The position numbers and the translations under genes are program-made. Shown here piece after piece: positions 7,756 to 52,709 of a stretch of 64,000 nt of DNA (its first letter is position 1; each line of letters begins with the position of its first letter). The DNA is taken from positions 1,674,001 through 1,738,000 of the forward strand of contig NZ_CP006269.1 of assembly GCF_000737535.1 (NCBI RefSeq), given 5' to 3'. Under the pieces are notes generated by a model, which ran no database searches, was not told the origin of the DNA, and saw only the letters and a list, made by a program, of their open reading frames with translations. Source of the DNA: Synechococcus sp. KORDI-100. GTDB taxonomy: Bacteria > Cyanobacteriota > Cyanobacteriia > PCC-6307 > Cyanobiaceae.

Positions 7756-7923
7756 ATGGGCGAGTTCATTGAATTAGGTACAACCTCCGGTCCCATCGGG
7801 CTCATCAGTGGACTGTTCTGCCTGAGTGCTCTGGGTCTTTTTGCCATCTTCCAGACGGGTCCGAGCGACGACGACGATTCCAACGGCGGCGGTGGTGGCG
7901 GATTGATGCAGCCAATTTCCTGA
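7756..7923 (+). CDS. Small single-span membrane protein, hypothetical
   Basis: 55 residues: MGEFIELGTTSGPIGLISG, then a hydrophobic helix (LISGLFCLSALGLFAIFQ, about 16-34), an acidic patch DDDD and a run of six glycines before LMQPIS. No family recognised. The ATG at 7756 follows GGTGGTGAG, a plausible ribosome site; an in-frame TTG at 7732 also exists. It sits alone between mfd and a secreted protein gene. Small single-helix proteins are common in cyanobacterial thylakoid complexes, but nothing here ties it to one. Confidence 0.65.
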   Translation: MGEFIELGTTSGPIGLISGLFCLSALGLFAIFQTGPSDDDDSNGGGGGGLMQPIS

Positions 7924-8064
7924 GCAGGATCTTTTCAACTCAGGATTCGATCTGAACAGGTCAGCGGTTGCGATCGAGTCATGTTTGATCGCATTTACTC
8001 AACACTTCAGTGACCACTCTTCAGAGTGATGGCAACAAGCTGATGTCATCACTGGGATCAGGCG

Positions 8065-47017: not shown

Positions 47018-47590
47018 TCAAGGCAGCGCGCTGATCGAACGGATCAACAACCGAATCGAACCGGGTCGAAAGCCAGGGTTGAGGTCGCCGGCATCGCCGA
47101 ACTTGGAATGCAGCACCTGGATGCGGGTGACACCGCCGCGATCAAAGCGCAACGGCAGGCCCACGGGTTTGGCGCGCACGGTGGGGCGCAGATCCGCAAA
47201 CGGCACCACCACACGGGTTGTCCCGCTGGAGTTGGTGGGGACGTCGATCACCCAACGCAAACCACCGGGAATCAGTTCAGTCAGCCCCAACGCTCCATCC
47301 CGGCAGCCAAGGGCGATCTTGAGGGTGCGGCCCTCACCATCCACATCGATCTGCAGCGCCGAGAAGGGCGTCAGATCCAGTGGCGGCTGCAGACGTGGTG
47401 AACGGCAGCTGACGAAGCCACCGCCGCGCTCGACCAGCTCGCCTTCCAAGAGGAGACCGTCCTCCACCACGCGGCATCCGGCACGGGAGCTGCCGCCCAT
47501 GATCGTGTCGTTGAGACTGGCCCAGTCAGCGAACTGCTGACCCTGTACAAGCACCTGGTCTGCGGCGGGCGACTGCATTCTGAACAGCAT
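47018..47590 (-). CDS. CIA30 family protein
   Basis: 190 residues. The galactose-binding-like CIA30 domain is visible: DWASLNDTIMGGSSRAGCRV ... GFVSCRSPRLQPPLDLTPFSALQIDVDGEGR and PLRFDRGGVTRIQVLHSKF near the end. Mitochondrial CIA30 assists complex I assembly; the cyanobacterial role is unknown (possibly NDH-1 or photosystem assembly). Start 47590 (MLFRMQSPAADQ) or 47602. Confidence 0.86.
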   Translation of the reverse strand: MLFRMQSPAADQVLVQGQQFADWASLNDTIMGGSSRAGCRVVEDGLLLEGELVERGGGFVSCRSPRLQPPLDLTPFSALQIDVDGEGRTLKIALGCRDGALGLTELIPGGLRWVIDVPTNSSGTTRVVVPFADLRPTVRAKPVGLPLRFDRGGVTRIQVLHSKFGDAGDLNPGFRPGSIRLLIRSISALP

Positions 47591-47648
47591 GAAACATGCC
47601 ATCCCTAGCAGGCTTTACCAGGAGATCGAGAGCATCCCCTTCAGTGCC

Positions 47649-48032
47649 TCAGCTCAGCTGTCGGAGAATCGCCGGTGGGATGAACCAGTACGACACCAAT
47701 TGCCAGTCGCGACCCAGGAGGTACGAACGGTAGAAATCCCCGACATCCCGCCAGGAATTCCGGTAGTGGCTGGGGTAGATCGTGGTGGTCAACACCGAAA
47801 AGATGACGACGTGCAGGAAGTTTGTTCCGAGATGGTGGCCGAGCTGAAAGCCCAGAAGCCTTGCCTCACTGTTGACGCTGAAGTCGAGCTGAAAATGATC
47901 ATGGAGATGGTCGTGCAGCTCCGTGCACTCACCGATTCAGGGGATCCAGTTTTCAAGGAACTCAACGAACGGATCCGGCTGGTCGCTGGGGTCGATCGGA
48001 CCAGGGGAGATGGCCCACGCAACTCCTGCCAT
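47649..48032 (-). pseudogene. Small helical protein gene with internal TGA
   Basis: From ATG 48032 the frame reads MAGVAWAISPGPIDPSDQPD, then PFVEFLENWIP, then TGA at 47937-47939, then IGECTELHDHLHDHFQLDF, ARLLGFQLGHHLGTNFLHVVIF and a conserved-looking end GDFYRSYLLGRDWQLVSYWF to the stop at 47649. Total 127 codons, coherent on both sides. Probably a point mutation (Arg CGA to TGA) or a sequence error; an unrecognised family, apparently helical with many His. It lies 16 bases after ghaB on the same strand. Confidence 0.6.
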
Positions 48033-48048
48033 TGACCGCAACCCCAAT

Positions 48049-48759
48049 TCAGCAAAGGGATCTTATTTGAGACTCCGCCGCGACCCGATGCTGGTCCAGG
48101 GACTCCCCAAGCCAGTGATGCCAGGCACTGAAGCCCTCTCCCGAGGTTGCTGACAGTTCAAAAATCACAGCATTCGGATTGATGCTGCGGATGTTGTCGC
48201 GGATGGTCTGCACATCCACAGGCAGATGGGGCAGCAGGTCTGTCTTGGTGATGATCACCACATCGGCTCGACGGAACATCACCGGGTATTTCAGAGGCTT
48301 GTCATCTCCTTCGGTGACGCTCAGCAGGGCGACCCCGAGATGCTCCCCCACAGCGAACTCCGCTGGGCAGACCAGGTTGCCGACGTTCTCGATCCAGAGC
48401 AGATCCAACGTGGATGGGTCGAGCCTCTGCTGCAGCAGGCGCAGACCGCCCTGCACCATGGAGGCATCGAGATGGCAGGCCCTCCCTGTGGTGATCGGAA
48501 CCACGGGAACGCCCACAGCCTCCAACCGCTGAGCATCCAGCTGGGTGGTCATGTCCCCCTCAAGCACCGCCATCCGGAATGTGCGGCACAGCTGCGGCAG
48601 GGACCTCTCGAGCAGGGCCGTCTTGCCTGCCCCCGGACTGCTCATCACGTTCAACGACAGCAACCGCCAGGCATCGAAGGCCTCTCGGTTGTGATCAGCC
48701 TGGTGCTGGTTGGCGGCCAGAAGATTGATCTCCAGGTTGTCGCCGATGGGCATGTGCAT
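48049..48759 (-). CDS. ghaB: HypB-like GTPase, nickel insertion for guanidine hydrolase
   Basis: 236 residues. SIMIBI GTPase: P-loop MSSPGAGKTALLE (about 39-51), EGDMTTQLDAQRL, GRACHLDASMVQGGL, and TKTDLLPHLP (NKxD-like). HypB normally supplies nickel to [NiFe]-hydrogenase or urease, but no hydrogenase or urease gene is in this window, and the neighbours are a HypA-like gene and the ureohydrolase. The N-terminal His-rich region typical of hydrogenase HypB is nearly absent (only MHMPIG). I therefore assign it as the accessory GhaB; hypB is the common annotation. Confidence 0.82.
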   Translation of the reverse strand: MHMPIGDNLEINLLAANQHQADHNREAFDAWRLLSLNVMSSPGAGKTALLERSLPQLCRTFRMAVLEGDMTTQLDAQRLEAVGVPVVPITTGRACHLDASMVQGGLRLLQQRLDPSTLDLLWIENVGNLVCPAEFAVGEHLGVALLSVTEGDDKPLKYPVMFRRADVVIITKTDLLPHLPVDVQTIRDNIRSINPNAVIFELSATSGEGFSAWHHWLGESLDQHRVAAESQIRSLC

Positions 48760-48774
48760 GGCTCTTGGATAGCG

Positions 48775-49131
48775 TCAGGTGGGTGCCGATTCGATCCGGC
48801 GGATCCTGAGTTCACGGCCGCTGAGGATGTCCTCAAGCGGTGCAGAACAGCATGGAGAGCGGTATTGCTCCGTCACCGTTGGGGTGTAGGTCGATTCACA
48901 GCGGGGACAACGACCAACCAGGGGAATGCTGTTGATCTGGAGGCTGGATCGCTCGAGCCAGGTTCCACCCACGGCGGCCGCATAGGTGGTGACCAGCGCG
49001 TCGGGTTCGACGCAGGTGAATTCACCAACATCCAGATGCACGGTCCTGACCTCCATTGGAGCGGATGGCTGGGAATCCCGCCATTCCGCAAGCGAGAGGA
49101 GCAGGCAACGGGTCATGTCGACTTCATGCAT
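48775..49131 (-). CDS. ghaA: HypA-like nickel metallochaperone for guanidine hydrolase
   Basis: 118 residues. Starts MHE, the nickel-binding N-terminus of HypA (His2). The zinc site is C-x2-C (RCPRC, residues 75-78) plus an adjacent pair SPCCSAP (94-95) in place of the usual second C-x2-C. Lies between the ureohydrolase (5 bases) and the HypB-like gene (15 bases), all on one strand. As with ghaB, context points to nickel delivery to the ureohydrolase rather than a hydrogenase. Confidence 0.82.
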   Translation of the reverse strand: MHEVDMTRCLLLSLAEWRDSQPSAPMEVRTVHLDVGEFTCVEPDALVTTYAAAVGGTWLERSSLQINSIPLVGRCPRCESTYTPTVTEQYRSPCCSAPLEDILSGRELRIRRIESAPT

Positions 49132-49136
49132 GACCG

Positions 49137-50327
49137 TCAGCGCCAGGCCTGATCGACCTGCATGTTGCAGTTGGGATCAAGCCAGCTCGGCGTTTCGCGT
49201 CGGGGGAGTTGACCGCTCACCACGAGGTGGGCCATGGTGTCGCAGATCACCCGGGTCGCCATCAGCGAGGTCATGTCGCTGATGTCGTAGGGAGGAGAGA
49301 CCTCCACGAGTTCAAGGCCACAGACAGGCACCTGGCGGACGATCAGTTCGAGCAGCTTGAGCGCTTCCCTGGGCAACAGACCACCTGGCTCCGGCCAGCC
49401 GGTGCCAGGAACGAAGCCGGCATCAATGCAGTCGATGTCGAAGGAGATGTAGACGCAGTCGGTGCCATCGGTGGCCCGTTCAATCGCGAACTGGGCCGCC
49501 GCCTCCAGCCCCATTTCGGTGATGTCCGTGACCGTGAGCACATTGGTGCCGCGCTCGCGGCAGACCTTCACGCCCTCCCGGGGAACCTGCCAGCCGCCGA
49601 TGCCCAACTGCACGAGATTCGCCGCAGGGGCATTGGCCATGTTCGTGGCATGGAACCAGGGGCAGGTATGCATCCGTTCATCCAGATCGGTCTCCTGGGT
49701 ATCGACATGCCGGTCGAAATGGATGATGCCGACCTTGCGATCGCCGAGATGCCTGCAGACCCCTCGCACCGTTGGGAAGCCGATCGAATGGTCGCCGCCC
49801 AGGATGATCGGGAAGGCGCCGCTGGCAAACACGTGGGCCACCCCTTTGGAGATCTGATCGAAACTCTTCTCGTTGTTGGCGGGAATCGTGAAGATGTCTC
49901 CGACATCGCACAGGCGAATCTGCTCGCGGAGATCGACGCCCATCTCGTAGTTGTACGGGGTGTACAGCGCCGAGATGCGGCGGATGCCCTGAGGACCGAA
50001 CCGCGTGCCAGGTCGATAGGTGGTGCCGCTGTCGTGGGGAACGCCCAGCACGGCAACGTCATAGTTGCCGACCTGATTCACATCCTCCAGGTAGGGAGCC
50101 TTCATGAAGGTGTTGATGCCGGCATAGTGAGGCAGTTCACCGCGCGAGAAGGTGGAAATCCGCCGGTCCACGATGCTTGCCGCAGCATCAAGCCCGAATT
50201 CGCGGGCCCGGTCCACCTCCGTTTGCCAACCGGTCAGCGGCAGCTGACGTTCCTTTTCAAGTGCCTGCATCCCCTCGCTGGGATGTTGACGCTGAAAACC
50301 AGCCGTGTCGTCTGAGGACGCAGTCAT
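49137..50327 (-). CDS. gdmH: Ureohydrolase, predicted nickel-dependent guanidine hydrolase
   Basis: 396 residues, arginase/agmatinase fold. Metal ligands: GGDHS (His180), HFDRHVD (Asp205, His207, Asp209) and SFDIDCIDAGFVPG (Asp297, Asp299). Usual agmatinases have FDAHxD; here it is FDRHVD followed by TQETDLDERMHTCPWFHATN, a signature I recall from Synechocystis Sll1077, shown to be a Ni-dependent guanidine hydrolase (guanidine to urea and ammonia). The long N-terminal extension (~80 residues) also fits that class (about 390 residues) and not short agmatinases. The two nickel accessory genes follow directly. Usual automated name: agmatinase speB. Confidence 0.85.
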   Translation of the reverse strand: MTASSDDTAGFQRQHPSEGMQALEKERQLPLTGWQTEVDRAREFGLDAAASIVDRRISTFSRGELPHYAGINTFMKAPYLEDVNQVGNYDVAVLGVPHDSGTTYRPGTRFGPQGIRRISALYTPYNYEMGVDLREQIRLCDVGDIFTIPANNEKSFDQISKGVAHVFASGAFPIILGGDHSIGFPTVRGVCRHLGDRKVGIIHFDRHVDTQETDLDERMHTCPWFHATNMANAPAANLVQLGIGGWQVPREGVKVCRERGTNVLTVTDITEMGLEAAAQFAIERATDGTDCVYISFDIDCIDAGFVPGTGWPEPGGLLPREALKLLELIVRQVPVCGLELVEVSPPYDISDMTSLMATRVICDTMAHLVVSGQLPRRETPSWLDPNCNMQVDQAWR

Positions 50328-50370
50328 GGAATCAAGTGCAGAAGCAGCGGAAGCGATGGGCTTCCTGACT

Positions 50371-50396
50371 CCACCCCTACACCGTCGCAGGGGTGG
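50371..50396 (-). promoter_or_regulatory. Hairpin with ACGG tetraloop upstream of gdmH
   Basis: Read on the minus strand: an 11-pair stem CCACCCCTGCG/TGTAGGGGTGG (two G-U wobbles next to and near the loop) with tetraloop ACGG. On the plus strand the wobbles become A-C mismatches, so the structure suits the gdmH-sense RNA. ACGR tetraloops are the hallmark of guanidine-II riboswitch hairpins, which normally come in pairs; a second ACGR hairpin is not seen here. It sits between the pgl stop (50407) and gdmH start (50327), with no T-run after it. Confidence 0.45.
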
Positions 50397-50406
50397 TGCG
50401 CAGCTT

Positions 50407-51120
50407 TCAAAGAGCTGCAGCGGCGTCCTGATCCGCCAGGATCACAACCTCCGATTCCGGTTGCACCAACTTGGCGGGAGTGCGCTCTGGTGATTCATCA
50501 GGGTCGATCAGGCGCTTCAGCGCCTCCTGTTTGCCCGCCCCACTCACCAGAAAGATCACCTGGCGCGACGCACTGAGCACAGGGGCGGTCAATGTGATGC
50601 GATCCAGACCCTTGCCACGGCCAACGGTGGACCAGCTGGTGGTGACCGTTGGGGCCTCGGTGCCGGGGAACAATGACGCGGTGTGTCCGTCATCACCCAG
50701 GCCGAGAAGCATGACATCAAAGACGGGTGGATCTCCGGAACACTGGCGAGAGACCAGAGCTCCGAAGGCCTCGGCACTGGCATCCGCATTGGCCAGCTCC
50801 ACAGTCGGAACGGCATGGAACGTGGCCTTCGAGCCTGGTCCTTCCGCCAGAAGGGTGTTGCGAAGCATGCGGGCATTGCTGGATTCATCATCGGCAGCAA
50901 CCCAGCGCTCATCTCCGAGGAACACATCCACGCGATCCCAGGGGAGCCGTTCCTGTCCGAGCAGGCTGTAGGCCCGGGCGGGAGTCGTTCCGCCGGAAAG
51001 AGCGATTTGACAGCGATCACGCTGATCGAGGGCCAGGCTGATCTGGGCAGCGATCAGCTCGGACGCCCGGCGAGCGAGGTCCTGAGGATCGCTCGCCCGC
51101 TCGATGCGATAAACGGCCAT
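50407..51120 (-). CDS. pgl: 6-phosphogluconolactonase
   Basis: 237 residues. Second step of the oxidative pentose phosphate pathway. N-terminus MAVYRIERASDPQDLARRAS; motifs ALSGGTTPARAYSLL, WDRVDVFLGDERWVAADDESSNARM, LLGLGDDGHTASLFPGTEA, the typical DevB/Pgl set. It begins 11 bases after gnd, the next enzyme of the pathway, on the same strand, so an operon is probable. Confidence 0.95.
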   Translation of the reverse strand: MAVYRIERASDPQDLARRASELIAAQISLALDQRDRCQIALSGGTTPARAYSLLGQERLPWDRVDVFLGDERWVAADDESSNARMLRNTLLAEGPGSKATFHAVPTVELANADASAEAFGALVSRQCSGDPPVFDVMLLGLGDDGHTASLFPGTEAPTVTTSWSTVGRGKGLDRITLTAPVLSASRQVIFLVSGAGKQEALKRLIDPDESPERTPAKLVQPESEVVILADQDAAAAL

Positions 51121-51131
51121 GTCTGATCAGC

Positions 51132-52550
51132 TCAGGCCAGCCATTCGGTGTGGAAGGTGCCTTCCTTGTCGATGCGCTTGTAGGTGTGGGAGCCGAAGCA
51201 ATCACGCATCGCCTGCACAAGGTTCTGAGGGAGACGTCCGGTGCGGTAGCTGTTGATGTAATCCAGCGTGCTGCTGAAGCAGGGGACCGGAATGCCGGAC
51301 TCAGCAGCGCCGGCCACCACCTTCGCCAGACCGGGAAGACGACGGTTTACCTGCTCGGCGAACCATGGATCCAGCATCAGATTGGGCAGCTGGGGATTGG
51401 CGTTGTAGGCATCCTGAATCCGCTTGAGGAGTCGGGCACGGATGATGCAGCCCCCCTTCCAGATCTGAGCGATGGAGGGCATGTGGAGGTCGTAGTCCAG
51501 ATCGTTCGAGGCGATCCGCAACAGCTCCATGCCCTGGGCATAGCTAGCAATGCAGCTGAGCACCGTGGCGTCCATCAACGGGGACATGGCATCGGCGGGA
51601 GTCCCAAGGTCGAAATCCTTGATGGCCGGTCCCTTCAGGACGTCCTCGGCCTTGACACGCTGCTCCTTCATGGAGCTCATCACCCGTCCATTCAGGGAGG
51701 CATAAATGGTGGGAACCGATGCGCCCATCTGGAGGGCAGTCACCACGGTCCAGAGACCTGTTCCTTTCTGCCCAGCCTGATCCATGATTTTCTCAACAAG
51801 ATCCTGGCCGTCCTCTGGATCCTTGGTGCGAAGACAAACCTCGGTGATCTCCACCAGATAGGAGGACAGTTCCTCCGTGGCATTCCACTGGGCCAGAACG
51901 TCGGCCATCTGATCGCCATTCATTCCCTTGACCCGCTTCATCAGGTCGTAACCCTCAGCGAGGATCTGCTCGATGCCGTACTCGATGCCGTTGTGGACGG
52001 TCTTCACAAGATGACCGGATCCACCCGGACCGATGTACGTGACGCAGGGGCCATCCTCAACCTGGGCGGCCATTTTGTTCACCAGGCTTTCAATTGCGTC
52101 GTAGGAGGATTTGGTTCCCCCCGGCATCATGCTCGGGCCCTCGAGGGCTCCTTTGGCCCCACCGGATACACCCATTCCGATGAAGCCGAAGCTCTTGCTT
52201 TCGAGCTGCTTCACGCGGCGCTCAGTGTCGTGATAGTCGGAGTTGCCGCCATCAATCAACAGATCACCTTCCTCGAGATAAGGAGAGATCTGATCAACCA
52301 CTGCATCCACGGCAGGACCAGCCTTGACCATCATCAGGATGCGGCGTGGACGCTCAAGCTTGCCGACGAAATCCTGCAGATCTGAGGCACCCTGAATGTT
52401 TTTGCCCTGGCCACGACCATTCAGGAACTCTTCGGTTTTGGCATAGGTACGGTTGTAGACAACGCTTGAAAAACCATTACGTTCGGCGTTGAGGACGAGG
52501 TTCTCGCCCATGACACCGAGACCGATCAGACCGAAGTGAGACTTGGACAT
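51132..52550 (-). CDS. gnd: 6-phosphogluconate dehydrogenase (decarboxylating)
   Basis: 472 residues. Third step of the oxidative pentose phosphate pathway. HFGLIGLGVMGENLVLNAERNGF (NADP site), GPSMMPGGTKSSYDAIESLV, GGSGHLVKTVHNGIEYG, and the C-terminal RDCFGSHTYKRIDKEGTFHTEW. Start 52550 (MSKSHFGLIGLG) follows a CCCTCCGACC-type leader with a purine-rich RBS; the 7-residue extension is rejected. Upstream is glgC, which makes ADP-glucose for glycogen, a related carbon-storage gene. Confidence 0.96.
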   Translation of the reverse strand: MSKSHFGLIGLGVMGENLVLNAERNGFSSVVYNRTYAKTEEFLNGRGQGKNIQGASDLQDFVGKLERPRRILMMVKAGPAVDAVVDQISPYLEEGDLLIDGGNSDYHDTERRVKQLESKSFGFIGMGVSGGAKGALEGPSMMPGGTKSSYDAIESLVNKMAAQVEDGPCVTYIGPGGSGHLVKTVHNGIEYGIEQILAEGYDLMKRVKGMNGDQMADVLAQWNATEELSSYLVEITEVCLRTKDPEDGQDLVEKIMDQAGQKGTGLWTVVTALQMGASVPTIYASLNGRVMSSMKEQRVKAEDVLKGPAIKDFDLGTPADAMSPLMDATVLSCIASYAQGMELLRIASNDLDYDLHMPSIAQIWKGGCIIRARLLKRIQDAYNANPQLPNLMLDPWFAEQVNRRLPGLAKVVAGAAESGIPVPCFSSTLDYINSYRTGRLPQNLVQAMRDCFGSHTYKRIDKEGTFHTEWLA

Positions 52551-52709
52551 GGTCGGAGGGACCACTGACAACTGACGTCAGTGTGAGCACGCCATCCGGA
52601 TCCGGCCGCAAATCAAACGACATGTGTCAGGAATGATGCATCGAGACGTCGTTTGTTTGATCAGGGACGTCTCATCCCTTGCATTGATATCCGATTGGAT
52701 ATCTTTCGG

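Follow-up and report, generated by a model that had tools for sequence, protein, structure and literature searches.

Among the closest described relatives of the locus considered here is the guanidine-degrading system of Synechocystis PCC 6803, where Sll1077 (GdmH) breaks down guanidine rather than agmatine (PMC8390497) and is encoded with hypA, hypB and transporter genes in one operon under guanidine-I control (PMC8390497, PMC12186494). Accessory proteins that deliver nickel to GdmH have also been described (PMC12186494). In Synechococcus and Prochlorococcus, the clusters designated Syn-eCAG_001 and Pro-eCAG_004 comprise speB2, which is the sll1077 ortholog, homologues of hypA and hypB and a TauABC-like transporter, to which most Synechococcus/Cyanobium add a Rieske protein. 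A guanidine riboswitch precedes the cluster in Synechococcus reference genomes, and its hypAB homologues have been suggested to insert nickel or another metal (PMC10119275). Structures are available for the Synechocystis guanidinase (7OI1 and 7ESR) and for that of Nitrospira inopinata (9FEK) (PMC11410670). Since PMC10119275 describes the picocyanobacterial speB2-hypAB cluster, the main inference of the initial annotation, namely that genes resembling agmatinase, hypA and hypB form a guanidine-degradation cassette, was already in print, and the reading of the enzyme as a guanidine hydrolase is largely published (PMC8390497; PMC10119275). None of the titles and abstract openings among the matches listed pointed to a Synechococcus guanidinase cluster that is split or has no riboswitch, but the supplementary figures of PMC10119275 may show one; a term search of PMC11851481 found no mention of guanidine.

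Here we analysed a window, by which we mean the whole stretch of 64,000 nucleotides of Synechococcus sp. KORDI-100, together with the rest of its genome (G000; one contig, 2,789,000 bases), the genome of its sister (G203) and those of other relatives. Three ORFs encoding GdmH-, HypA- and HypB-like proteins lie at 48049-50327 on the minus strand, just where they had been annotated initially. In all probability they represent a guanidine-hydrolysis module with nickel chaperones that is uncoupled from the riboswitch and importer and resides inside gnd-pgl-CIA30. The features, in window coordinates, are the following.

47018..47602, minus strand: CIA30-domain gene, the downstream host gene (PF08547, 107 bits)
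47652..48032, minus strand: small orphan ORF whose codon 32 is an in-frame TGA; the sister genome has it intact
48049..48759, minus strand: HypB-like GTPase (presumably GhaB), 236 aa (TIGR00073, 274.3 bits vs a cut-off of 121.2)
48775..49131, minus strand: HypA-like putative nickel chaperone (presumably GhaA), 118 aa, zinc motif CPRC + SPCC (PF01155, 80 bits)
49137..50327, minus strand: predicted gdmH-type nickel-dependent guanidine hydrolase (speB2), 396 aa (PDB scores and dN/dS)
50328..50406, minus strand: pgl-gdmH spacer, 79 nt, with hairpins and no T-run (no guanidine riboswitch found; folding)
50407..51120, minus strand: pgl, 6-phosphogluconolactonase, the upstream host gene (TIGR01198, 189 bits)
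51132..52571, minus strand: gnd-like 6-phosphogluconate dehydrogenase gene, 11 nt upstream of pgl (ORF, named by eye)

The names GhaA and GhaB, which we assume to apply to the HypA-like and HypB-like proteins, come from Funck et al. 2022. The cassette resembles the Synechocystis operon in combining an enzyme of the same family with hypA and hypB, and transporter genes are present in the genome too. However, the Synechocystis genes, transporter included, form one guanidine-I-controlled operon, whereas our searches of G000 revealed no riboswitch, and about 160 kb separate the cassette from the transporter. With Syn-eCAG_001/Pro-eCAG_004 the genome shares speB2, hypA and hypB and, elsewhere on the chromosome, the TauABC-like transporter and Rieske genes, but its cluster is split in two, has no riboswitch that we could find and has its guanidinase part in gnd-pgl-CIA30. 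The Nitrospira inopinata enzyme belongs to the same family (575 bits to 9FEK); by contrast with G000, the N. inopinata genome yielded no chaperones of this nickel-loading type, according to PMC11410670.

The identity of the enzyme is supported by a search of PDB sequences, in which it scored 769 bits against the Synechocystis guanidinase (7ESR/7OI1) and 575 bits against that of Nitrospira, whereas the best non-guanidinase match, proclavaminate amidinohydrolase, reached 176 bits. It is by such alignment scores, rather than by a joint tree, that we place the protein with guanidinases and not with agmatinases, as the initial annotation had proposed; clustering with agmatinases, which it had named as possible counter-evidence, is contradicted by the PDB scores. 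The Pfam Arginase family was matched above its cut-off, with the domain match starting at residue 90. The NCBIfam agmatinase model TIGR01230 was passed by 2 bits (176.4 vs a cut-off of 174.3), a marginal result that we judge insufficient beside the PDB scores. The FDRHVD motif and the DERMHTCPWFHATN stretch, to which attention had been drawn earlier, are indeed present and in the alignment are identical to those of Sll1077. The sequence contains GGDHS, FDRHVD and SFDIDCID, which we take to be the metal motifs. The long N-terminal extension, previously seen as distinctive, does exist but is not special: its alignment to Sll1077 begins at query residue 14, which makes it normal for the GdmH family. 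By analogy with its characterized relatives, GdmH would hydrolyse guanidine at a binuclear site containing nickel, yielding urea and ammonia, and we infer that it requires nickel in this strain as well.

The two accompanying proteins matched the Pfam HypA and CobW/HypB families above the cut-offs, and the HypA-like protein stayed below the NCBIfam hypA cut-off (71.1 vs 88.1 bits). In the best 80 of 558 loci, all of the 80 named ones show gdmH followed by hypA and then hypB. Genome-wide searches of G000 detected a single HypA, no NiFe hydrogenase, UreG above its cut-off and one urease alpha subunit, located at C1:82860. The initial remark that the window holds no hydrogenase or urease gene agrees with these results, the only urease alpha subunit being outside it, and the case of a hydrogenase-bearing genome without other hypAB copies is excluded because the genome has no NiFe hydrogenase. 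The linkage to gdmH, the lack of a NiFe hydrogenase in the genome and the urease having its own UreG support the role suggested for the pair, that of dedicated nickel chaperones for GdmH, whose site the HypA- and HypB-like proteins would load with nickel.

HypA proteins of hydrogenase maturation typically carry two CxxC zinc motifs. The HypA-like protein of the window departs from this pattern, its second motif being SPCC, so that the unusual adjacent cysteines pointed out in the initial annotation are real. SPCC is found in all 81 aligned HypA-like proteins, the window copy included, and PCC in 108 of 108 examined from family loci, which represent fewer genomes, since some loci are apparently doubled (at least L003/L151, L005/L120, L008/L153, L012/L155, L019/L133, L021/L156 and L032/L126). 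Elsewhere in the phylum the Cys-Cys pair is absent from 69 of 69 HypA proteins; these come from 70 loci chosen from matches in 156 genomes, L248 having no HypA ORF. Among them, 22 are gdmH-linked, meaning that a GdmH match of >50% identity lies within the fetched stretch (L230 and L231 scored highly but, having no gdmH within that stretch, were counted as unlinked). In contrast to the SPCC of G000, 21 of these 22 from other cyanobacteria (Synechocystis was not identified among them) have CPxC and one has CSQC. The suggestion that Cys-Cys marks a ureohydrolase-specific branch of HypA can thus be rejected for ureohydrolase-linked HypA in general, as the motif marks only its picocyanobacterial part. 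Apparently, one zinc-ligand position has moved by two residues in picocyanobacteria.

The chromosomal site of the cassette is unusual for the genus. A search with pgl showed that gnd precedes it in 18 of 18 genomes, and in 15 of the 16 relatives other than KORDI-100 and its sister the CIA30 gene directly follows pgl, with overlapping matches; in other words, the site is empty. In KORDI-100 and its sister, pgl and CIA30 are separated by gdmH-hypA-hypB plus the small orphan ORF. The one exception among the relatives, G112, has another gene there, a different ORF of 336 residues on the opposite strand (L175, 2299-3309, minus), so the pgl-CIA30 junction has apparently taken inserts at least twice. 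The orphan ORF spans 127 codons in the window, where it is interrupted, and 112 aa in the sister, where it is intact (L149:9083-9421); it has no Pfam or NCBIfam family. The spacings, namely 11 nt between gnd and pgl, 79 nt between pgl and gdmH, 5 nt between gdmH and hypA and 15 nt between hypA and hypB, would suit co-transcription of the cassette with gnd-pgl. This seems the most likely mode of expression for a cassette having neither a riboswitch nor a linked importer, because it stands between pgl and the CIA30-like gene.

Guanidine-I riboswitches were sought with a model (R1) built from seven Rfam Guanidine-I hits. Among the best 80 of 558 loci, a riboswitch lies upstream of gdmH in all 53 non-Prochlorococcus loci (51 at ≥70 bits, two weak), and none was detected in the 27 Prochlorococcus loci (L058 has too little upstream sequence). 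Twenty relatives whose gdmH regions we retrieved, hand-chosen from the 74 genomes with gdmH in a set of 201 from the family, all have it upstream of the gene as well, one of them in a weakly scoring form. Within the genus gdmH occurs in 13 of 34 genomes, that is, in KORDI-100, its sister and 11 others, and all 11 others have the riboswitch before it. In KORDI-100 and its sister, the genome-wide R1 scan detected none (150 of 197 candidates were scored in the former, 150 of 194 in the latter). The same was true of the Rfam model run over KORDI-100 alone (none at E≤10, 99 of 99 candidates scored) and of a scan run without filters over the cassette and the transporter locus in both genomes, where the best score was 13.2 bits (E 0.23). 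As the Prochlorococcus loci among the best 80 of 558 illustrate, the absence of a detected riboswitch is not unique to these two genomes. Nor is riboswitch decay, because the scores of the RCC307-type loci L004, L005 and L120 are low (29.6-35.8 bits); in L004 and L005 the weak, perhaps degraded, guanidine-I riboswitch is at its usual place (7876-7976; 29.6 and 35.8 bits).

The hairpins of the pgl-gdmH spacer are kept in the sister genome (fold z -2.50 in KORDI-100 and -3.51 in the sister). We considered several regulatory elements and rejected them. A Guanidine-II riboswitch does not fit, as the loop of the main hairpin is ACGG here and ACGU in the sister and a loop of this kind is absent from the second hairpin; Rfam returned nothing relevant for the spacer at E≤5. 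An intrinsic terminator was discarded, there being no T-run and none listed at this position. For NtcA, no full consensus match was seen, with 149 nt upstream of gnd scanned, and core palindromes were present only in L157 (not L158) and L114.

The importer genes show a similarly exceptional arrangement. Each of the 11 further congeneric genomes with gdmH has its transporter and Rieske genes directly behind hypB. Where the sequence continues for 4.5 kb or more past gdmH (71 loci), the binding protein is found in 70 (L074 has no such ORF), the permease in 71 and the ATPase in 69 (L010 and L031 have no ATPase ORF). There is no transporter within 8.1 kb after gdmH in KORDI-100, and none at the cassette of its sister. 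Instead, the binding protein, permease, ATPase and Rieske genes start at C1:1884526 in KORDI-100 and occupy the syntenic position in the sister. Downstream of them comes the usual convergent gene, TIM12174, which has no Pfam or NCBIfam family and neighbours the Rieske gene in 13 of the 15 further loci used for comparison; therefore, the transporter half has kept its downstream order without the front half. The undetected riboswitch, the unlinked importer and the insertion into gnd-pgl-CIA30 had all escaped the initial annotation. Two other neighbourhoods may be mentioned. A glutamine-synthetase-like gene (named by eye) occurs in 30 of the 71 loci with 4.5 kb after gdmH (L007, L015, L123 and others), mostly between hypB and the transporter. 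In L157, L158 and L115 a nitrilase/radical-SAM/acetyltransferase cluster (named by eye), which we take to be Nit1C-like, is near the guanidine transporter genes.

The two halves of the system also differ in divergence. Between KORDI-100 and its sister, pS is 0.240 (132/549) for the cassette and 0.491 (310/632) for the transporter, giving a ratio of 0.49. The ratio was 0.89-1.13 in 54 control pairs from 14 genomes with a transporter pS of 0.40-0.60. Over all 91 control pairs, which share genomes, it ranged from 0.46 to 1.28 with a median of 0.99, and the one pair with 0.46 (L150-L152) is at small divergence. Consistent values were obtained for dS, which is 0.42-0.68 in six neighbouring genes vs 0.24-0.31 in the cassette. 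The contrast lies in synonymous sites and not in raw identity, which in 250-nt windows overlaps between the cassette (about 0.88-0.95) and its flanks (0.82-0.95). The best reading of these data suggests that, once the two lineages had separated, one of them or both received the cassette, either by exchange or from a shared source. The orphan ORF may be older in the site than the cassette, because its divergence (pS 0.377, pN 0.056) is like that of the flanks.

Several other explanations have to be considered. Having passed TIGR01230, if only by 2 bits, the enzyme might be a true agmatinase beside leftover hydrogenase-type hypAB genes. We find this very hard to believe in view of the 769 and 575 bits to guanidinase structures vs 176 bits for the best other match, the linkage of hypAB to gdmH in 80 of 80 named loci (best 80 of 558) and the second arginase-family gene elsewhere in the genome, about 33% identical to gdmH. 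The HypA/HypB pair could alternatively serve another nickel enzyme such as urease, which the genome does encode; yet UreG is present for it, there is no NiFe hydrogenase, and the pair accompanies gdmH at the new place too, all of which makes such a role scarcely credible. The interrupted orphan ORF next door might indicate a decaying relic. Against this, all three cassette frames are intact and dN/dS between the two genomes is 0.019 for gdmH, 0.161 for hypA and 0.126 for hypB, so that decay seems most improbable.

A more serious question is whether a native cassette was relocated within the genome and then evolved faster, instead of being acquired from another genus. Both the GdmH tree (59 rows) and the three-protein tree (53 rows) put the KORDI-100 and sister copies outside the clade of the other copies of the genus and join them to G054, which belongs to another genus (96/90 and 100/99, respectively). 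The transporters of the same two genomes, however, fall within the clade holding the copies of the genus (100/98; 47 rows), and joining them to G054 was rejected by the AU test (p 0.022, the group having been named after the tree was seen). These results, obtained with chosen rows, some of them doubled, and with Prochlorococcus left out of the three-protein and the later DNA and transporter AU analyses, suggest an origin outside the genus but do not prove it. In favour of relocation, a grouping of the cassette with the other copies from the genus was not rejected by AU tests (p 0.145 for GdmH, 0.064 for the three proteins and 0.27 for DNA positions 1+2), and in the HypAB tree (59 rows) the two copies, although outside the clade of the genus, sit on a long branch whose place the tree does not settle. 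On balance, we would give relocation somewhat less than an even chance. Composition provided no sign of foreign origin (GC 0.61-0.62 in the cassette vs 0.53-0.64 in neighbours), and no gdmH was confirmed in viral contigs. As for function, the module might mainly detoxify guanidine made in the cell rather than take part in nitrogen uptake. The undetected riboswitch and the importer being no longer linked would agree with that, but the importer's three genes have stayed conserved (dN/dS 0.03-0.06) and urease is present, and we regard detoxification as the main role as rather unlikely. Use of guanidine as a nitrogen source by this strain is plausible because the transporter homologue and urease are found elsewhere in the genome, which is thus predicted to encode importer, GdmH and urease together; urease would finish guanidine breakdown.

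It is tempting to speculate that a riboswitch-less module has been spreading among marine Synechococcus lineages into one gnd-pgl site. If so, inducible nitrogen scavenging might have given way to expression together with the oxidative pentose phosphate pathway, perhaps clearing internal guanidine; we offer this as a tentative scenario, possible but doubtful. The apparently shifted HypA cysteine ligand, present in every picocyanobacterial copy examined, may provide a test case for zinc-site plasticity in nickel chaperones. Likewise, a lineage that keeps the enzyme and the importer without a detected riboswitch, with the enzyme in a carbon-metabolism operon, would be a natural comparison for asking whether guanidine is a nutrient or an internal waste product.
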